57,206 nt of DNA from Candidatus Neomarinimicrobiota bacterium. Its GTDB lineage: Bacteria > Fidelibacterota > Marinisomatia > Marinisomatales > TCS55. The notes below the pieces were generated by a model. The model saw only the letters and a list, made by a program, of their open reading frames with translations. It was not told the origin of the DNA and searched no databases. Position numbers and translations under genes: made by a program. This document shows, piece by piece, positions 23,928 to 42,782 of the stretch (its first letter is position 1; the number at the start of each line of letters is the position of its first letter). The stretch is taken from the NCBI GenBank assembly GCA_018651745.1, contig JABIDL010000043.1, forward strand, positions 1 through 57,206, in the 5' to 3' direction.

Positions 23928-24429
23928 TCTCAAAATATTTCAGGATTTCGGCCGCATGTGTATTCACATTCACTTTATCATATATCTTCTCGATTCGGCC
24001 TTCTTTGTCAATCACATAAGTATTACGGTTTGCAAAAAGAAAATTTCCGGATTGGTAAAGTTTGGCTACTTTTTTCTTTCTATCTGATAAAAATGTAAAT
24101 GGCAAATTATGCTTTTTCTTAAACTTTAAAAGCTTTTCAGGTTTATCGTAGCTAATGCCAAGCACAACTATTTCTTTTTCAATATATGTATCAAATACGT
24201 CGCGGAACCCGCACGCTTGTTTGGTTCATCCGGGTGTTTCCGCCTTCGGGAAAAAATAAACGACAACACGCTTCCCCAAGTAATCAGATAAAGTGTGTTC
24301 TTTCCCGTGTTCGTCCTTTAATGTAAAGTCAGGTGCGGGCAATCCAACCTGGACATCGCCACTTCTGGCAGTGAGCCATGCAATCATGATTAGTCCTATT
24401 GTTAGAGCTTTAGAAATATTCTGCATCAT
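23914..24429 (-). CDS. bcp: Selenocysteine peroxiredoxin, BCP/PrxQ type, exported
   Basis: 171 residues if TGA at 24228-24226 is read as Sec68. The frame is continuous on both sides and shows KAETPG-U-TKQACGFRD, the BCP/PrxQ active site with Sec replacing the peroxidatic Cys and resolving Cys73 five residues later. It reduces peroxides with thiol donors. The N-terminus is a signal peptide or anchor (KALTIGLIMIAWLTARSG), placing it in the periplasm. The following residues FFPKAETPG and VVLGISYDKPEK complete the fold. A SECIS-like hairpin follows the TGA at 24198-24215. It is 14 bases downstream of thiI and overlaps the TonB receptor start. Standard annotation would split or truncate it. Confidence 0.88.
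24198..24215 (-). promoter_or_regulatory. Candidate bacterial SECIS element for selenoperoxiredoxin
   Basis: On the mRNA strand, CGTGCGG pairs with CCGCGACG (seven pairs, one bulged G) closing a GUU apical loop. The loop lies 18-20 nucleotides after the in-frame UGA. Bacterial SECIS elements are within-CDS hairpins whose small apical loop, roughly 16-37 nucleotides after UGA, carries G at the first or second position; this one fits. The stem is GC-rich in an AT-rich gene. Confidence 0.7.
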
Positions 24430-27872: not shown

Positions 27873-28045
27873 AAATACTCTTGCGATCCTTTAAACATGT
27901 AAGGTGATAATAGTTTCCAAGTTTGACATCAATTAATCAAAAAAGTTGTCAGAAAATAATCAATTTCTAAAATGCAGGAAAGTCTTCCAGGTGACAGGAA
28001 AAATTATTTTAATTTGATAATTTGAATAAAGGAAATAGAGAAAAA

Positions 28046-30142
28046 ATGGATGAACCAATGAAAAAAATGAAATTACAATTCAATGAATCTTTAATAATCC
28101 GAAAAAGAATAATACCGACTTTAATAATTTTTATAGGGATATTTTTTACGGCAATAAGCGGGAAAAATCTTAGCCTTCTTTCGGAAGATGGAATAAATAA
28201 TGTTGAACTTTTGGATGTTTATATTTACGAAGATTATGCTTTTATCCCGGGAGGACTTGGTGGATTAAACATTGTTGATATTTCAGATCGCTCAAACCCG
28301 CAGGTCGTTGGAGAATATACAGCCAACAACTGTGACTGGGGTCGGTTGTACTCCTGGTCGGTTTTTGGAAATTATACTTTTGGCGCAGGACGCGATTGTG
28401 GAATTCATGTTTTAGATATTTCTCAAATATCTAACCCTCAGCTGGTAGAAAACTTTGAAAGAGAATCAGAATCAATGCCGGTGCGCTATGAGCATACATC
28501 TACTCATTCAATTGGTACAGTAAATTATTTATTTGCAGCCGGACATCAGGCGGGAGTTGATGTATTTACAATCAACAGCGATGAACAAAGTAGTACCGTT
28601 TTGAATTATATCTCAACCATTGCTAGTTCAAACGCTTGGGCAACACAACCGTTTGGCAATATCCTATTTATTGCTGACGGAGCAACCGGAATACGTAGCG
28701 TTGATATATCAAATCCTTCTAACCCGATCCCGGTTAACATGATATCTGCCAGTGGAAGCGTTAAGGATTTGACCATTTCTGAGAATCGCCTTTTCGCCGC
28801 TGTGGGTGCATCCGGTGTGGATATGTTTAACATTTCGAACCCGGCAACTCCCTTATTTTTGTCTAACTATAATACCAGCGGTTATGCTTCACGAGTGGCG
28901 GCGAATGATTCACTTGTAGCCGTGTCAGATTGGGATGATGTTGAAATCCTAGGATTCACCGAAGGGGAATTAATTTTGAAAGGAATTAAAAATACCGGTG
29001 GAAGATCGATGGCAATTGATATGGTTGGAAATGATATTTTTTCTGCTGAATGGATTGAATTCCAAACCATGCGATATGGAAATGTTGAAGGACCAGATCT
29101 TGATATATCGAATCGAAAAATTGAATTTCCCAGAGTACCCTTTGGAGAGAATGAAACTATATCCGTTCAGCTTACAAACAGTGGAAGGGCGACCTTAAAT
29201 ATTACAGGAATAAGCAGCGATAACGTTGACATTTCAATCCCATTTAATTCTGCAGAAATCCTTCCTAATGCATCATTAACCCTTCCCATTACTTATACAC
29301 CAAATATAGGAAATAGTTGGACAGGTTATATAACCATAAGCTCAAATGATTCCGATGAAAATAATGAAAAAATACGCATAATCGGGAATCATCCAAGTGG
29401 ACCGATGGTGGGAGATCCGGCGCCGAATTTTAATCTTCCAATAGTTAACGGCGTGGGAATGATGGAACTCTCAGACCTTGGTGAAAATCCGGCGGTCATT
29501 GCCTTTTTTTCTGCTTGGTGACCAGTTTGCGCTCCGGAGTTTTCGGACATCGAAGTTTCAATTTGGCAGGAATATAAAAATCAAGGTCTGCAAGTAGTAG
29601 GTATCTCAAATGAACCACTTCAAACGATTGAAAATTTTATCGCAGATCAGGGAATCACTTTTCCGGTTCTGCGCGATGTTGCCGGGGTTTACAGTGCCTA
29701 CAATATCCCAGGAGGGCAATCACCTTTCCCACGTGATTTTATCATAGATCAAAATGGGATATTAAGAATGACAAAGACAGAATATGATCCGGGTACCATG
29801 ATTAATATCATAGAACAATTATTATCGCCGGAAGTCACAACTGATGAGGAAACACTGTCAAAAAAGTTTCAGTTACATCCAAACTACCCAAATCCATTCA
29901 ATTCTGCCACTACACTCCAATTTCAATTGGAGACTGCGAGTTTTATCAGGCTCGATATTGTTGACCTCCTTGGTAGTGTGGTGGCAACACTTGCTGAAAA
30001 TGAATATCTAAAAGACGGCAGTTTCAATTTCAGATGGGACGCATTAAACCAGAATGGAGAAGCACTTCCATCAGGCGTGTATATCGCTAGACTTCGTTCG
30101 GGGGAAAATATACAAATCCAAAAAATGATTCTTTTGAAATGA
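28046..30142 (+). CDS. Secreted selenoprotein: beta-propeller + Sec-redoxin + sorting tail
   Basis: 698 residues when TGA at 29519-29521 is read as Sec492. ATG 28046 is chosen (purine-rich ggaaatagag upstream); the longest frame starts with TTG. Order: signal/anchor (~15-38); about six LVIVD-like propeller repeats (~45-345; e.g. GLNIVDISDRSNPQVV, GVDMFNISNPATPLF); an ASH/DUF1573-like Ig domain (~355-445); an AhpC/TSA-TlpA-like redoxin (~455-615) with AVIAFFSAW-U-PVCAPEF, Sec in the nucleophilic first position of a UxxC motif; and a sorting domain (YPNPFNSATTLQFQL ... QKMILLK). Frame 29522-29767 has no other stop. Likely a surface thiol/selenol oxidoreductase. The next gene overlaps by ATGA. 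Confidence 0.87.
29533..29547 (+). promoter_or_regulatory. Candidate bacterial SECIS element in Sec-redoxin gene
   Basis: TCCGG pairs with TCGGA (four Watson-Crick pairs plus a closing G-U) around the loop AGUUU, 17-21 nucleotides after the in-frame UGA. G occupies the second loop position and is followed by U at +18/+19, the same spacing as the GU of the peroxiredoxin hairpin. The stem is short, so this is weaker than the other two candidates. Confidence 0.55.
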
Positions 30143-33324: not shown

Positions 33325-34056
33325 TCAAGGAATTCGAATATAATTGCTACTCTTAAACGGGTCGGAGTAGGGAATACCCATTTTCTCATATAGCATTGGT
33401 GGGACAGAAATATCACCGAGATACAAATCTCCTAATATTTCTCTATTTTTAGAGTCATTCATACCTTTCTTTGGTAACGCCAGTGTCAGAGTTGCAGTTG
33501 CATGAACAACAAATGATGGTTCATTTTTTTCATTAAATCGAAATCCTGTTGGTGCATCCAATGAAATGATAATTTTGGATGAGTAATTACTCAGAATACT
33601 AACAGCATTTTGTATTGACCCCCGTAATGGTCCACTTATTCCATATCCAATCATTGCATCAACAATAATATCCGAATTAGAAAATGCTTCTTCCAATTTT
33701 AAAGATGATGGTTTAATCATTTGTTTTACCGGCAATTCATTCAAAATATTCCATTGTTTTTTTGGAATCGCTTTCAGTTTTGATTTATCAGAAAAAAGTA
33801 AGATTGTTACATCAACGCCACGATTGGCTAAATGACGAGCAGCCACCATTCCACCACCACCATTATTCCCCGCTCCGCACAATAGGGTAATTTTAGGATG
33901 AAGGATTGTTGAGTTTCTGAGATAATCCTGACTCAATTGCGAAAGTGCATTTCCTGCATTCTCCATCATTTGTGTTAAAGAGATGTTGTAGTGACCCGCC
34001 ATCAGTCGGTCCACTTCCCGCATTTGATCAACAGTGATTAGCGGCACATCATTCAT
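33325..34056 (-). CDS. nnrE: NAD(P)H-hydrate epimerase (YjeF N-terminal domain)
   Basis: 243 residues corresponding to the epimerase domain alone. It interconverts R and S forms of hydrated NAD(P)H so that a dehydratase can repair them. Motifs: MREVDRLMAGHYNISLTQMMENAG, the nucleotide loop LLCGAGNNGGGGMVAARHLANRG, VDAMIGYGISGPLRG and ISLDAPTGF. The C-terminal dehydratase (NnrD) domain found fused in E. coli is missing and no separate copy is in the window. The start overlaps the thioredoxin-like gene by 8 bases. Confidence 0.9.
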   Translation of the reverse strand: MNDVPLITVDQMREVDRLMAGHYNISLTQMMENAGNALSQLSQDYLRNSTILHPKITLLCGAGNNGGGGMVAARHLANRGVDVTILLFSDKSKLKAIPKKQWNILNELPVKQMIKPSSLKLEEAFSNSDIIVDAMIGYGISGPLRGSIQNAVSILSNYSSKIIISLDAPTGFRFNEKNEPSFVVHATATLTLALPKKGMNDSKNREILGDLYLGDISVPPMLYEKMGIPYSDPFKSSNYIRIP

Positions 34057-34450
34057 CTATAGTGTTGAGCACCTTTCTAAATTGTTTGGCTGTTTGAAAT
34101 CCTGCTTGCTGATATGTAATCTTTCCATTCTCATTAAATACCAAAATCGTTGGGAGCGCTTTCACGCCATAAGCATGAGCCAAAGCAAGACCTTCTTTTG
34201 TCTCTATATCTACCTTTAAGGCAATATAATTTTCCAAAGCCATTTTAATTGAACTATTTGCAAACGTTTCACGATCCATTTTCCTGCAATTATGGCACCA
34301 GTCTGCATGAAATTTTACTATGACCGCCTTCCCTTGAGATTTCCCTTCGATGAAAGCTTCTTCTAGTCTAATCTTCGAGAAAACATCTTTTTCATCTGCC
34401 ATTAATAATGCTGTTGTTAATCCTAATAGAAGTATTAGTGTATTTTTCAT
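34049..34450 (-). CDS. Exported thioredoxin-fold protein (CHNC)
   Basis: 133 residues with a signal peptide (NTLILLLGLTTALLMADE) and a thioredoxin_7/DsbD-gamma-like domain: VIVKFHADWCHNCRKMDRETFANSSI with active site CHNC, and cis-Pro block VKALPTILVFNENG. Such proteins receive electrons from DsbD/CcdA or supply them to periplasmic substrates. Both active-site cysteines are ordinary TGC/TGT codons. Downstream of the FAD oxidoreductase and the UxxU lipoprotein on the same strand, it may be a partner of the Sec-containing metal-binding protein. Confidence 0.85.
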   Translation of the reverse strand: MKNTLILLLGLTTALLMADEKDVFSKIRLEEAFIEGKSQGKAVIVKFHADWCHNCRKMDRETFANSSIKMALENYIALKVDIETKEGLALAHAYGVKALPTILVFNENGKITYQQAGFQTAKQFRKVLNTIDE

Positions 34451-34523: not shown

Positions 34524-35624
34524 TTAATAAGAAACGAAGGATGCCCTCAACGCTTTCCGTCTTCTAGAATCAACCGTATCTACAGCTCTCACAGCATATT
34601 CTTGCGCAGTATAAACTTGTTTCATGATCGGTTCATCTTCCCGCTTTGTCATATCACCCACAGCAAATAATCCATGTACAGATGTCTCTCCCTTATGATT
34701 GATCCATACATGACGTTTTTCTTCTGGTTGATCCTCATCCATTAATCGGGCTCCAACTTGCCGTGCGAGATCATTATATACACGATGGAGCCCCAAAGAT
34801 ACTAAAGCAAATTTCACAACTATATTTTCAAGAGATTCAAATTCAAAACCGTGTAGTTGCTTTGCACCTTCACTGACTAAGCCGGTAATTGGACCTGAAA
34901 TAATATCTATGTTATATTTCTTGAGAATTTTCATTCGATCATCAGAAATAGTAGATGTTTCCCCATTTGCTAAAATATGTACTTTATTTCCATATCGTTC
35001 ATAAAGCATCATAGCCAATTCTGCCGCCATATTTGAATGACCAATCACTGCAACAGATTCCTCGGTCGTTAAATGGCCTTCACATCGAATACAGTATAGC
35101 GCCTGTTCCCTATTCGCAAATGGGTATAGCCACTTCGGGGTTTCTTCCCAGTCACCTTTTTTATTTTGTTTCAAAATATGAGGTTGTTCATCCATAACAC
35201 CCGTGGATAAAATAACAGCCTTCCCCTCAGATAATTTATCGTCTAATTGGATAGAAAAACCTATTTCAGTTTTTTCCAATTGGGAAACTTCGCCCTCCAT
35301 TATTGTCACATTAGGGAATCCCCTTTCAATCCGTTGAACGGTATTCTGAATCAGCATACGATTATTGATATGATAATGCTCATTTTCAAGAAGTGTAATC
35401 GCTTCATCCTGCTTGTTCTTTTTCAATGTTTTAATGACTTGGGTTTTGATGATATCTTCATGAAATCCTACAATATTATCCAAGTTCATCACCCATTGTG
35501 ACCGGCTGCGTTTTCTAGATTTTTTTGATCCTAAAACCCAAAGAGTTTTCATCCCATTCTGGGCGGCACGAAGTGCAGAAGCGGATCCGCCAATTCCTCC
35601 TCCAATAATTATACTATCAAACAT
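34524..35624 (-). CDS. FAD-dependent, thioredoxin-reductase-like oxidoreductase
   Basis: 366 residues. N-terminal FAD-binding SIIIGGGIGGSASALRAA; middle NAD(P)H-binding VAVIGHSNMAAELAMMLYE; the redox motif is in YCIRCEGH, a CxxC at the position of TrxR CATC; C-terminal FAD motif GLFAVGDMT. The layout is that of low-molecular-weight thioredoxin reductase, diverged in sequence and without a signal peptide, so cytoplasmic. A ribosome-binding AAGGA sits about 7 bases before ATG 35624. It begins 3 bases after, and in the same frame as, the UxxU MerP-like gene's TGA stop. Its electron acceptor is unknown. Confidence 0.82.
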   Translation of the reverse strand: MFDSIIIGGGIGGSASALRAAQNGMKTLWVLGSKKSRKRSRSQWVMNLDNIVGFHEDIIKTQVIKTLKKNKQDEAITLLENEHYHINNRMLIQNTVQRIERGFPNVTIMEGEVSQLEKTEIGFSIQLDDKLSEGKAVILSTGVMDEQPHILKQNKKGDWEETPKWLYPFANREQALYCIRCEGHLTTEESVAVIGHSNMAAELAMMLYERYGNKVHILANGETSTISDDRMKILKKYNIDIISGPITGLVSEGAKQLHGFEFESLENIVVKFALVSLGLHRVYNDLARQVGARLMDEDQPEEKRHVWINHKGETSVHGLFAVGDMTKREDEPIMKQVYTAQEYAVRAVDTVDSRRRKALRASFVSY

Positions 35625-35627
35625 TAG

Positions 35628-35948
35628 TCATTCCTTTTCTAGATTGGTCCAATTCAAAACATTAAAATCCCCTGCCTTTTCTACAGACTTTACAATGTCA
35701 GATTGTGACAATTTAGAAGCGTAGTAATTCACAGTGAAAGTTCTAGTCTTCTGATTAAATGAATGTTTCTGTATTCCTATCAGCCCATCCAGGGCTTTGC
35801 CGATATTGATCGGTCATCCCATTCATAGTATCCCACCACGGATATCCATCCCACCAACTGCGAATGTAGCTATTTGAATTTCATTATTTATTGTACAAGA
35901 TATAAATACCAGTGGTACTATCAAAAATGCTACTAAATAATTATTCAT
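35628..35948 (-). CDS. MerP/HMA-like selenoprotein with U-x-x-U metal site
   Basis: 106 residues if TGA at 35825-35823 and 35816-35814 are Sec42 and Sec45. The N-terminus is a lipoprotein-like signal (YLVAFLIVPLVFISC, Cys18). Then QIATFAVGGMDI, a strand, and GGIL-U-MG-U-PINIGKALDGL. This aligns with the mercury-binding MerP/HMA motif GMTC-SA-C-PITVKKA, both cysteines replaced by Sec. The remainder (HSFNQKTRTFTVNY ... LSQSDIVKSVEKAGD) is the standard HMA beta-alpha-beta end. ATG 35948 follows the malic enzyme stop directly. The window would otherwise show an unexplained 320-base gap here. Likely a periplasm-facing soft-metal (Hg, Cu or similar) binder; function is inferred. Confidence 0.8.
35782..35796 (-). 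promoter_or_regulatory. Candidate bacterial SECIS element in the UxxU gene
   Basis: AGCCC pairs perfectly with GGGCT around the loop UGGAU, with G at the second loop position. The loop is 23-27 nucleotides after the second UGA and 32-36 after the first, so one hairpin could serve both. A second weaker hairpin (CCGA/TCGG, loop UCAAUA, 35800-35813) lies directly after the second UGA but lacks a leading loop G. Confidence 0.65.
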
Positions 35949-37571
35949 CTAAATATAATCCTGATACTCTGCTTTATACATCATTTCTCGAATAAAATCT
36001 ATTTTATTTTCATCCGTTTCAAATTCGGCAATGGTAGTTGCTATTTCTAAAGATAAATCACGGATTTGAGTTAAGGGCGGAAAAACTCTTCCATGATCCA
36101 AATCGTTTGGAGATAAAGATTTCGAAATAATTTCCGATGCTATCAGAAACATTTCATCTGTGACTCTATCTGCTTTTGAGGCGACTACACCCAAGCCCAC
36201 ACCGGGGAAAACATAAGCATTATTTCCTTGCCCGGGGACATGTGTTTCTCCATTGATTTCCACAGGATCAAAGGGACTCCCGCTCGCAAATACGCACTTT
36301 CCATTTGTCCATTGATAAGCTTGCTCAGCCGTGCATTCTGATTTCGAAGTTGGGTTTGAAAGTGCAAAAATTACGGGATTATCATGAATATCCGCCAATG
36401 TACGAATCGCATTTTTTGTAAAGGCCTGCGCTTGACCCGAAACACCGATTAATGCCGTTGGTTTTACAGCGCGAATTATTTCTGTTAGGTCAGAAAGATG
36501 TTCAAAAGGATGAGCAAATGGTTTTTTATCTTCAGAAACGTTTTCCCGTCCGTTTACAACCAATCCGCGGCTATCAATAAACCAGCATCGCTCTCTTGCT
36601 TGTTCGATTGGAATACCATTCTTAGAAAGTGCTTTGGAATATAATTCACCGATTCCAATTCCAGCGGATCCTGCTCCGTAAAATAGTAATTTTTCGTCTT
36701 TTAATTTTCGACCGGTTAATTTTTCACTTCCCAAAAGCCCTGCAACACCAATCGCAGCTGTGCCTTGAATATCATCATTCATCATGCGAAAATTATTCTG
36801 ATATTTACATAAAAGTCTCGAAGCGTTCCTATTCGCAAAATCTTCAAATTGTATTAAAGTATCCGGAAAAACAGTTTTAACTGCATCCATAAATTCATCT
36901 AGGAAATCATCATATTTTCTCCCACAAATTCGGTTTTGTTTTACACCCAAATAATTAGGATCATTTAATAAATCTGAATTATTCGTTCCCACATCTAACA
37001 TAATCGGTAAAGTCTTCGATGGATCAATCCCAGCGCACGCTGTATAAAGAGACAGTTTTCCAATAGGAATCCCCATACCATTCGCCCCTTGATCTCCCAA
37101 ACCCAGAATTCGTTCGCCATCAGTAACAACAATAACATCCACTTCCTTATTCTGCCAATTTAGTAAGACGTTTTTAATGTTGTTGTGATCTCGATAAGAA
37201 ATATATAATCCTCTTGGTCGGCGAAATAAATATCCGAATTTTTGACAAGCCTCCCCTACCGTCGGCGTATAAATAACTGGCATCATTGTTTCAATTTCAT
37301 CAATGACAATCCTATAAAATAATGTTTCATTTCTATCATGCAACCCCATCAAATAAAGATATTTTTCAATGTCATTTGATTTGGAATTAAAATTCATCAG
37401 AATACGGTTTTTCTGTTCTTCGATGGTCGTGACTCGAGGTGGCAATAAACCGTGTAACCCAAAAGTGTCTCTTTCTTTTTGGGTAAAGGCAGTCCCTTTA
37501 TTCAAAAGCGGCTCATGAAGTATATGCGACCCACCATGAAGTTCGCTAATCATTTTCTTAAATTCGGTCAT
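35949..37571 (-). CDS. maeA: NAD-type malic enzyme (malate dehydrogenase, decarboxylating)
   Basis: 540 residues, the size of the large malic enzymes (SfcA/MaeA). It converts malate to pyruvate and CO2 with reduction of NAD(P). Motifs: VIYTPTVGEACQKFG, VVTDGERILGLGDQGANGMGIPIGK (malate/metal site), FEDFANRNA, the dinucleotide loop LLFYGAGSAGIGIGEL and VIFALSNPTSKSECTAEQA. The Asp/Glu that decides NAD versus NADP cannot be settled by eye; resemblance to MaeA suggests NAD. ATG 37571; its stop is directly abutted by the UxxU gene, implying cotranscription. Confidence 0.95.
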   Translation of the reverse strand: MTEFKKMISELHGGSHILHEPLLNKGTAFTQKERDTFGLHGLLPPRVTTIEEQKNRILMNFNSKSNDIEKYLYLMGLHDRNETLFYRIVIDEIETMMPVIYTPTVGEACQKFGYLFRRPRGLYISYRDHNNIKNVLLNWQNKEVDVIVVTDGERILGLGDQGANGMGIPIGKLSLYTACAGIDPSKTLPIMLDVGTNNSDLLNDPNYLGVKQNRICGRKYDDFLDEFMDAVKTVFPDTLIQFEDFANRNASRLLCKYQNNFRMMNDDIQGTAAIGVAGLLGSEKLTGRKLKDEKLLFYGAGSAGIGIGELYSKALSKNGIPIEQARERCWFIDSRGLVVNGRENVSEDKKPFAHPFEHLSDLTEIIRAVKPTALIGVSGQAQAFTKNAIRTLADIHDNPVIFALSNPTSKSECTAEQAYQWTNGKCVFASGSPFDPVEINGETHVPGQGNNAYVFPGVGLGVVASKADRVTDEMFLIASEIISKSLSPNDLDHGRVFPPLTQIRDLSLEIATTIAEFETDENKIDFIREMMYKAEYQDYI

Positions 37572-37594: not shown

Positions 37595-38122
37595 TTATTT
37601 ATAATTCAAAAATGTCCAAATTTGTTCAATACTTAGATGATCCCCAATATTTATCCCATAATAGGCGGTTTGAATAACCCCTTTTTCATCTATAAGGAAA
37701 TCGGCGGGAATCATGGCCAAATCTCCTTCCATTTTTGCCGGTAAAAACCCTTTCAGCATTCCTATCATTGCAGTTGGTATTCCTTTCAAATACCCCAACC
37801 AAGATGATTCTACCCCAAATTGCTGATACAATTTTCTGTCCGGATCAGGAATAATGGGAAAGGGCAATTCATCTTTTGCAACATAGTCCAAAATGCTTTC
37901 TTTCGGAGATTCAAACACGGCTAAAATTAGAAATCCTTGCTCTTGTAATTTATCATAAACTTGACCCAATTTATGAATCCGTAAATTGCATGCGGGACAA
38001 GATGCATATCGAAAAAAAGATAGCATCCATTTTTGATATATATATTTCTCTGTGGAATGCTCAATTCCGAAAATGTCTTTGGTGAAAAATTTTGGGACTT
38101 CTTCTCCTTGTTTTAAACGCAT
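37595..38122 (-). CDS. Peroxiredoxin-like AhpC/TSA-family protein
   Basis: 175 residues, thioredoxin fold with LSFFRYASCPACNLRIHKLG (CPAC at the active-site position), VFESPKESILDYVAKDELPFPIIPDPDRKLYQQFGV and PADFLIDEKGVIQTAYYG. This is the peroxiredoxin-like PRX-family arrangement (CxxC, no VCT motif). No signal peptide. It may reduce peroxides or act as a thiol reductase. Both Cys codons are ordinary. Located 23 bases upstream of malic enzyme on the same strand. Confidence 0.85.
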   Translation of the reverse strand: MRLKQGEEVPKFFTKDIFGIEHSTEKYIYQKWMLSFFRYASCPACNLRIHKLGQVYDKLQEQGFLILAVFESPKESILDYVAKDELPFPIIPDPDRKLYQQFGVESSWLGYLKGIPTAMIGMLKGFLPAKMEGDLAMIPADFLIDEKGVIQTAYYGINIGDHLSIEQIWTFLNYK

Positions 38123-40568: not shown

Positions 40569-42698
40569 CTACCTTCTCCACGTATGAAATTTTTCTACCC
40601 AATTCAGCAATCCTTCCGGTGCGTGGGCTTTTTTCCAATTTCCTGCAAGATATTTATTGGCTTCACCCATAGTCGGGTAAGCATGAATAGTGCCCAGAAT
40701 TTTATTCAATCCTAATCCATGTTTCATGGCAAGGACAAATTCCGTCAAAAGGTCTCCGGCGTGTGAACCTACAATTGTGGCACCCAAAATTGTATCTTTA
40801 CCTTTTGGCGTAATGACTTTGACGAATCCACTGTCCTCTCCATCAGCAATGGCTCTGTCCAAATCGTCTAATCCATACCGAGTAACTTCAAAATCAATTC
40901 CTTCTTCAAGGGCTTCCTGCTCGTTGATACCCACGCGAGCCACTTCCGGATCAGTAAATGTTGTCCATGGAATGACTCTGTAATCTGTTTTGAATTTTTT
41001 GAGTGGACTGAATAGACTATTCACCGCAGCATACCATGCTTGATGAGCAGCAAAATGCGTAAATTGATGGGGACCTGTTACATCGCCCACCGCATAAATA
41101 TTCGGATAATTTGTTCGCAAGAAATCATCCGCTTCGATGGTGCCATTTTTTCGGATTTCCACGCCCAATTCTTCTAATCCAAAACCGGTTACATTCGCTT
41201 TCCGTCCAAATGCCATAATAATTTCATCGCACTCAATATTGAGTTTATCCGGCTTGCAGTTACAGGTTACTACTTTTGACCCATGTTCATTTTTGAATCC
41301 TTCCACCATATGTCCCGTTCGGACCGTAATGCCTTCCGCTTCAAATTTGGCACGAACTGCATCGCTCACTTCTTTATCTTCTTTCAAAAGCAAACGGTTC
41401 ATTCCTTCGAGAATGGTTACTTGTGAACCAAATCGGGCAAAAGTCTGCGCCAGCTCACAACCGATAGGGCCACCGCCAACAACGACCAATCGTTTGGGCA
41501 ATTCCCGGATGTTCCACAGTGTATCGCTGGTAAGTGGTTGAACATCTTCAATGCCCAGAATGGGCGGAACCAAGGGTCGAGCACCTGTAGCAACGACAAT
41601 ATTTTTCGTAGTCAAAATTTCACCATTCACTTCCACACGATAAGGGTCAATTATTTTTGCTTCTCCTTCGTAAACATTCACACCCAAATCCGAATAGCGT
41701 TCCACAGAATCATGGGGCTCAATTTTTTTAATTACACTGTGAACTCGATCCATGACTTTGGAAAAGTCATATTTTATTTCCGCTGAATCAAACCCCCAAT
41801 CTTTGGCTCGCTCTGCATAATGAAGCATTTTTGCTGATCGTATTATGGCTTTACTGGGAACGCACCCCGTATTTAGACAATCGCCACCCATTTTATGCTT
41901 TTCGATTAAGGCAACTTTTGCCTTCACAGCAGATGCAATATAGGCGGAAACCAATCCGCCAGAGCCACCGCCAATGACCACCATATTATAATCGTAATTT
42001 TTTGGCTTTTTGGATTTTATCATATTTTTCCTTCTTTTTAAATGTTCCACAATCTTTTTTGAAATAAGTGGGAATACCCCCAAAAGTGCAAAAGCCAAAA
42101 TCATATTCAATGATAAAATATCGCCGGCTGATTCTAATTTGCTGATTTGCGTCCCTGCATTCACAAAGACCGCGGTCCCCGGCAGCATCCCGACTTGACT
42201 CACGAATGCGTAAGTCACGGCACCGATATAGGTTTTGGCAAATGCGGCATTCACCAGAAAAAATGGGAAAACCGGACTCAATCGAGACATAAATAAAAAT
42301 ACAGCGCCATCCTTTTCCACACCATGATTTACCTTTTTCATGATGGGCTTTAATTTTTCCTGAAATGCGTTACGAAATAAATATCGACAATTCATCATTG
42401 CCATCGTTGCGCCGATAGTGCTGGAAACAGACACAAGAATGACTCCTGGAATTAATCCAAAGATGGCTCCACCAGCTATTGTCATTATGGTTGCACCTGG
42501 TAAAGATAGCATGGCCATAATGATGTAAACCCCGGAATAAATAGAAATGGTTTTTATTTTATTCGCTAAATAATAATTATTTAAGGTGGACTGCTGTAAT
42601 TTTAAATATTCAAAATTTAGATACTGTCCTAAATCGTAAACAAAGTAAAGAACCACAATGGTAGCGATGGCTAATAATAGTAATATCTTTTTAATCAT
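40569..42698 (-). CDS. Fusion: TVP38/DedA-type membrane domain + MerA-like disulfide reductase
   Basis: 709 residues from ATG 42698; the longer frame starts inside an intergenic repeat. Residues ~1-225 form a TVP38/TMEM64 (SNARE-associated) membrane domain with about five helices (GATIMTIAGGAIFGLIPG, SRLSPVFPFFLVNAAF). The rest is a complete class I pyridine nucleotide-disulfide oxidoreductase: FAD loop VVIGGGSGGLVSAYIA, redox GGDCLNTGCVPSKA (CxxxxC), NAD loop LVVVGGGPIGCELAQTFARF, YAVGDVTGPHQF and C-terminal HAYPTMGEA. Mercuric reductase-like enzymes of this fused type are known. The C-terminal metal-binding CC pair of true MerA is absent, so the substrate is open. Confidence 0.9.
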   Translation of the reverse strand: MIKKILLLLAIATIVVLYFVYDLGQYLNFEYLKLQQSTLNNYYLANKIKTISIYSGVYIIMAMLSLPGATIMTIAGGAIFGLIPGVILVSVSSTIGATMAMMNCRYLFRNAFQEKLKPIMKKVNHGVEKDGAVFLFMSRLSPVFPFFLVNAAFAKTYIGAVTYAFVSQVGMLPGTAVFVNAGTQISKLESAGDILSLNMILAFALLGVFPLISKKIVEHLKRRKNMIKSKKPKNYDYNMVVIGGGSGGLVSAYIASAVKAKVALIEKHKMGGDCLNTGCVPSKAIIRSAKMLHYAERAKDWGFDSAEIKYDFSKVMDRVHSVIKKIEPHDSVERYSDLGVNVYEGEAKIIDPYRVEVNGEILTTKNIVVATGARPLVPPILGIEDVQPLTSDTLWNIRELPKRLVVVGGGPIGCELAQTFARFGSQVTILEGMNRLLLKEDKEVSDAVRAKFEAEGITVRTGHMVEGFKNEHGSKVVTCNCKPDKLNIECDEIIMAFGRKANVTGFGLEELGVEIRKNGTIEADDFLRTNYPNIYAVGDVTGPHQFTHFAAHQAWYAAVNSLFSPLKKFKTDYRVIPWTTFTDPEVARVGINEQEALEEGIDFEVTRYGLDDLDRAIADGEDSGFVKVITPKGKDTILGATIVGSHAGDLLTEFVLAMKHGLGLNKILGTIHAYPTMGEANKYLAGNWKKAHAPEGLLNWVEKFHTWRR

Positions 42699-42714
42699 AT
42701 TTCGTTTCCATTTT

Positions 42715-42782
42715 GCCACGAAGGCTCGAAGACGCAAAGGTAAATAATTTTTTAATTCTTGGAGCCTTCGTGTCTTTGTGGC
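42715..42782. repeat. Inverted pair of CGAAGACGCAAAG-type repeat units
   Basis: GCCACGAAGGCTCGAAGACG (start 42715, running into CAAAGG) and, on the other strand from 42782, GCCACAAAGACACGAAGGCT flank an AT-rich spacer. They are two diverged copies of the same unit in inverted orientation, able to fold as a hairpin and related to the motif at 1226-1250. The repeat fills the gap between the reductase ATG and the DUF3047 stop and touches that stop codon. Confidence 0.6.

Follow-up and report, generated by a model that had tools for sequence, protein, structure and literature searches.

The closest described counterparts of the protein analyzed here are the UxxU metal-binding (seleno)proteins, in which two selenocysteine (Sec, U) residues stand in place of the CxxC of an HMA-type domain. 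They form the curated NCBIfam family NF041115, “putative mercuric reductase” (PMC9312934, PMC13188914), which is listed in a 2026 review (PMC13188914); UxxU HMA selenoproteins as a kind are already recorded, and the original prediction that such proteins are not commonly annotated is not supported. Sec also occurs in the MerT/CopZ fusion-like heavy-metal selenoprotein NF045683, a membrane transporter fusion that includes an HMA part, and the GOS survey reported a marine selenoprotein described as “Mercuric transport protein MerP,” with 2 sequences and 0 Cys homologues (PMC2398784). The relatives with Cys ligands include MerP (TIGR02052; PDB 1osd, 1afi), an exported single HMA domain, and the cytosolic CopZ/Atx1-type chaperones and CopA N-terminal domains, with CxxC and without Sec.

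The two UGA codons and the hairpin behind them

The window (the whole 57,206-nt stretch of contig JABIDL010000043.1, from a Candidatus Neomarinimicrobiota bacterium) contains a UxxU gene that is absent from the standard annotation of this DNA. The following features were delineated:

35628..35948, minus strand: putative gene for an HMA lipoprotein of 106 aa with two selenocysteines, U42 and U45 (frame translation and homologues)
35895..35948, minus strand: signal peptide with lipobox-like ...FIS-C (Cys18), from sequence and homologues; predicted lipoprotein
35823..35825, minus strand: first predicted Sec UGA codon (U42), from translation and alignment
35814..35816, minus strand: second predicted Sec UGA codon (U45), from translation and alignment
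35782..35796, minus strand: putative SECIS hairpin with UGGAU in the loop; all 13 sequences share CUGGAU, and the stem shows compensatory changes

The frame opens with ATG at 35948 and closes with the stop TGA at 35630-35628; a plus-strand reading of the same interval was rejected because that frame is not open. With TGA translated as U, the product is MNNYLVAFLIVPLVFISCTINNEIQIATFAVGGMDIRGGILUMGUPINIGKALDGLIGIQKHSFNQKTRTFTVNYYASKLSQSDIVKSVEKAGDFNVLNWTNLEKE, ending at the stop. The HMA domain, which contains GGMDIRGGIL-U-MG-U-PINIGKAL, follows the signal sequence, and the Cys that closes the hydrophobic stretch is found in most of the UxxU homologues, suggesting that the product is an exported, lipid-anchored protein.

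The hairpin consists of AGCCC-UGGAU-GGGCU (5 bp, 5-nt loop, -8.0 kcal/mol), and lies 31 nt past the first UGA and 22 nt past the second; the hairpin originally predicted at 35796-35782 is thus borne out, its loop beginning at the 23rd nucleotide past the second UGA. Under the published bSECIS model, the loop spans 3-9 nt with a G in the first two positions, the stem has at least 4 bp, the distance from the UGA is 16-37 nt and the minimum free energy is at most -7.5 (PMC13188914), and the loop size, G position, stem, energy and spacing of this hairpin all fall within these bounds. Since both spacings lie within 16-37 nt, both UGAs are reachable by one hairpin, and this geometry suggests that a single hairpin serves both. 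The codons CTG GAT (Leu-Asp), which supply the apical loop and the last part of the stem, are identical in 13 of the 13 aligned sequences; the Gly residues at codons -9 and -3 and the Val at codon +31, counted from the first UGA, are likewise invariant but vary synonymously. In the same alignment, 98.5% of the stem cells are paired, and the pairing signal is lost when the partner strand is slid. Changes on both sides of the stem occur in 3 cells vs 0.6 expected from shuffles (3 of the 500 shuffles reach 3), although kinship alone can lift sequences above shuffles without structure, so that the invariant loop is the stronger SECIS argument; the compensatory changes, C-G to U-A and G-C to A-U, are in the homologous loci L079 and L080. 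A second hairpin lying upstream (about 35800-35813) was not taken as a SECIS, its conservation being inconsistent.

The Sec machinery called for by the original prediction is all present in the genome of the host (1.86 Mb at 96% completeness). Profile searches detected selB (355 bits, above the cut-off), adjoined by selA (502 bits), along with selD (402 bits, with an in-frame TGA of its own, n=1) and a tRNA-Sec with the anticodon UCA (68.7 bits). Either selB or tRNA-Sec is present in all genomes with the UxxU gene, a co-occurrence that is consistent with Sec decoding but weak as evidence, given that selB is found in 37 of the 45 genomes tested. Taken with the hairpin, these observations lead us to infer that both UGAs of the UxxU gene are decoded as Sec. 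Elsewhere in the window, a second likely selenoprotein (28022-30142, plus strand, TGA at 29519) is TlpA/peroxiredoxin-like, with FFSAW-U-PVC (UxxC) and a C-terminal sorting-like domain, and the gene caller breaks its frame at the TGA; a third, with TGA at 24228 (minus strand), is a thiol peroxidase of the PrxQ/BCP type in which Sec occupies the peroxidatic position (KAETPG-U-TKQACGFRD).

Conservation, selection and the predicted HMA fold

A search of the family and phylum identified UxxU at identical positions in 13 loci including the window. The 12 further loci come from relatives (those named are all Candidatus Neomarinimicrobiota), share 38-61% identity with the window protein and include one partial gene, L030, at a contig end; the motif common to the members is GM-x7-U-x-G-[U/W]-P. 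The W stands for one locus with U-x-G-W, L079 (genome G128), where UGA is followed by TGG, giving U-MG-W, and where the SECIS hairpin is retained through the compensating pairs despite the one-base change from TGA to TGG; this could be a functional single-Sec form, a decaying gene or a read error. A frameshifted copy (L050) and a remnant with only the C-terminal part, lying between malic enzyme and flavoprotein genes (L115, genome G039), indicate that the gene seems to be patchily lost. No match to the UxxU gene was found in viral contigs or plasmids, where spread by phages or plasmids was looked for.

In comparisons of the window gene with its homologues (pairs with unsaturated dS), dN/dS past the second UGA is 0.13-0.41; purifying selection acts on the sequence beyond the UGAs, a pattern not readily accounted for unless translation continues through both codons. 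No close Cys orthologue was detected in a pattern scan of 84,980 species (with one pattern written for the Cys form) or among the 245 genomes of the phylum; at the superfamily level, HMA domains generally have Cys (CxxC) at the aligned positions. The missing close orthologue is no refutation, because separate genomes keep both UGAs, the SECIS and the signature of purifying selection.

With U read as C, residues 39-93 match the Pfam HMA profile (PF00403, positions 6-60) at 36.4 bits vs the cut-off of 24.8, and in pairwise alignments U42 and U45 fall without gaps on the two Cys of CxxC. Together with the signal sequence and the 13 UxxU loci, these results sustain the earlier identification of a MerP/HMA-like double-Sec predicted lipoprotein with both TGAs on the ligand positions. 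The more detailed MerP-like motif alignment stands only in part: the ligands match CxxC, but the site as a whole is GM-x7-U-x-G-U-P, with a longer loop than the GMTCxxC of MerP and with a separate conserved G-M pair (G33-M34) seven residues ahead of the first Sec.

The AlphaFold2 model (12 homologues) has a mean pLDDT of 82, which rises to 91-97 at most core positions and drops to about 73-75 in the metal loop; its strands and helices follow the HMA order (beta-alpha-beta-beta-alpha-beta), with an additional small hairpin ahead of the first Sec. The geometry of the metal site could differ from that of known HMA chaperones, given that the loop is longer and less confidently modelled. Foldseek placed MerP (1osd) on top, followed by CopA, Atx1 and CopZ, and a profile search of PDB sequences led to the same superfamily. 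In a tree with the CxxC HMA domains of the phylum, built from few columns, the UxxU set forms one group with support 100/99; outside this group lies a predicted HMA lipoprotein of the ordinary CxxC type that has a CCK motif at its C-terminus and is encoded in the same genome as the UxxU gene (L001, G000 contig 30). Another Sec-containing HMA protein of the phylum (L089, 1075-2097, genome G062) has a signal peptide and joins an HMA domain bearing GMT-U-HSC (UxxC) to a rhodanese-like domain.

Gene neighbourhood and proposed function

The genes around the UxxU gene in the window are redox and metabolic genes:

34049..34450, minus strand: thioredoxin-fold protein with a signal peptide and WCHNC, resembling the DsbD C-terminal domain
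34524..35624, minus strand: thioredoxin-reductase (TrxR)-like FAD/NAD oxidoreductase, CIRC motif, 3 nt downstream of the UxxU gene
35949..37571, minus strand: malic enzyme, abutting the UxxU gene upstream
37595..38122, minus strand: peroxiredoxin-like protein related to SelL, whose gene immediately precedes the UxxU gene in several relatives
40569..42737, minus strand: fusion of a VTT/TVP38-like membrane domain and a MerA/lipoamide-dehydrogenase-like flavoprotein

The malic enzyme stop abuts the ATG and the flavoprotein gene begins 3 nt past the UxxU stop, so that these genes look co-transcribed. The TrxR-like gene lies directly downstream at constant spacing in 5 loci, a glutaredoxin gene is next downstream in four other loci, and the VTT/MerA-like fusion gene is found upstream in 4 loci. 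As a strict partner of the UxxU gene, the TrxR-like gene was rejected because the carriers overlap only in part: it is present in 6 of the 15 genomes with a UxxU gene or the frameshifted copy, and among the 9 genomes that carry it, 6 have the UxxU gene; of the other three, one retains the C-terminal remnant L115, and no clear remnant was detected in the remaining two. In L080, a TlpA/ResA-like thioredoxin precedes the UxxU domain within a single fusion protein. In L081, genes for CusC-, CusB- and CusA-like proteins precede the UxxU gene by about 73 nt (the last scoring 1221 bits with the CusA/CzcA model), with an AraC-type regulator containing a CxxC metal motif farther upstream. MerTP-like and Fe-S CopZ-type metallochaperone genes occur 6-8 kb downstream in L074; no mer operon genes were found among the window neighbours, the only MerTP-like gene being that of L074, 6.5 kb away.

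Selenols are more acidic than thiols and bind soft metals strongly, and the extreme affinity for Hg, Cu and Ag that was originally proposed for the selenol pair is plausible. Judging from sequence and context, the UxxU protein is most likely an envelope soft-metal chaperone or scavenger, and we regard as probable the full scheme, in which a lipid-anchored double-Sec HMA domain captures soft metal in the envelope and is kept reduced by its neighbours. Under this scheme, both UGAs would be read as Sec via the one SECIS hairpin, and the product would be exported, lipid-anchored and folded as an HMA domain; within the cell envelope, a soft metal such as Cu(I), Ag(I) or Hg(II) would be gripped by the two selenolates of U-M-G-U, and the protein would either hand the ion to a partner in efflux or detoxification or retain it, while thioredoxin-fold, TrxR-like, glutaredoxin or peroxiredoxin-like neighbours would keep the selenols reduced. 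Several observations count against a metal role: the metal-gene context is direct in L081 only and loose in L074 and L080, the neighbours in the window are those listed above, the longer and less confidently modelled loop could give the site another geometry, the Trp at the second position in L079 would not be tolerated by a two-ligand site unless that gene is decaying or misread, and UxxU also suits a redox diselenide.

The last of these points leads to the principal alternative, namely, an HMA-like scaffold that serves as a redox enzyme or carries electrons, in which the U42/U45 pair would alternate between the diselenide and selenol states, supplied by the thioredoxin and TrxR-like neighbours, and reduce, for example, peroxides, oxidised thiols or metal ions. 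Redox proteins make up most of the neighbours, the fusion in L080 joins the domain to a thioredoxin, and Sec families of known function are mostly oxidoreductases (PMC2398784), all of which speaks for such a role; however, metal chaperones are nearest in both fold and sequence, one member sits directly behind a CusCBA-type operon, a metal-binding selenol pair would itself need reductants to stay reduced, and the TrxR-like gene is missing from most of the 15 genomes considered above. The single UxxW member and the mostly redox neighbourhood keep this explanation in play, but we consider it rather unlikely.

A mercury-specific variant, whereby the protein would hand Hg(II) to a flavoprotein, either the TrxR-like protein or the VTT/MerA-like fusion, much as MerA receives it from the NmerA domain, could account for the equal spacing of the downstream gene in 5 loci and for the recurrence of the fusion upstream in 4. 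At 32 and 393 bits, both flavoproteins fall short of the 454 bits required for MerA, the fusion protein ends without the C-terminal Cys pair that is typical of MerA, and several loci lack both flavoprotein genes, so this variant appears highly improbable. Damaged copies do exist (frameshifted L050, UxxW in L079, the remnant L115), as would be expected of a pseudogene, an assembly error or ordinary stop codons, but recurrence of the same two UGAs in separate assemblies, the invariant SECIS loop, the downstream purifying selection and the complete Sec machinery already refute this interpretation, barring one artefact common to all homologues, and we give it next to no credence. Decay and sequencing error were accordingly rejected on independent conservation, SECIS covariation and dN/dS, in agreement with the original prediction.

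If its two Sec residues do act as the metal ligands, as presumed, the envelope chaperone favored here would be a conserved case of Sec kept for metal binding, set against most selenoproteins of known function, in which Sec serves redox catalysis. These small, testable proteins bear on why a selenol replaces a thiol in a chaperone site, on how a single SECIS could act on two UGAs and on how selenium might be linked to metal defence in abundant marine bacteria; in this phylum, the whole gene has been overlooked by ordinary gene calling.

Comparison with recorded families

Membership in NF041115, MerP and NF045683 was rejected, the scores being far under the cut-offs. The window protein reaches 32 bits with NF041115 vs the cut-off of 95, which is attained in 0 of the 245 genomes of the phylum, and its family differs from NF041115 in the longer metal loop, the lipoprotein signal and the separate clade among the HMA domains of the phylum. 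With MerP (26.5 vs 92.55 bits for TIGR02052), it shares the Pro after the second ligand and the best structural match; in MerP, however, the ligands are Cys and one residue separates GM from the first ligand, whereas the window protein has Sec, a separation of seven residues and no mer operon at the locus. The CopZ/Atx1-type and CopA domains are alike in the HMA fold and in the position of the metal site, and NF045683 yields 18.3 bits vs 375. The GOS selenoprotein, likened here by its table description without a motif, might belong to the UxxU lipoprotein family. It is possible, and we suggest it tentatively, that these genes define a distinct, obligately double-Sec metallochaperone family of SAR406-type marine bacteria, with an extended loop, one SECIS for two UGAs nine bases apart, dedicated redox partners (the TlpA fusion and the TrxR-like flavoprotein) and Se-dependent capture of Cu, Ag or Hg in the envelope. 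What sets the family apart from the recorded UxxU proteins, as far as sequences indicate, is the distinct loop, the predicted lipoprotein form, the TlpA fusion and the Cus-type linkage.
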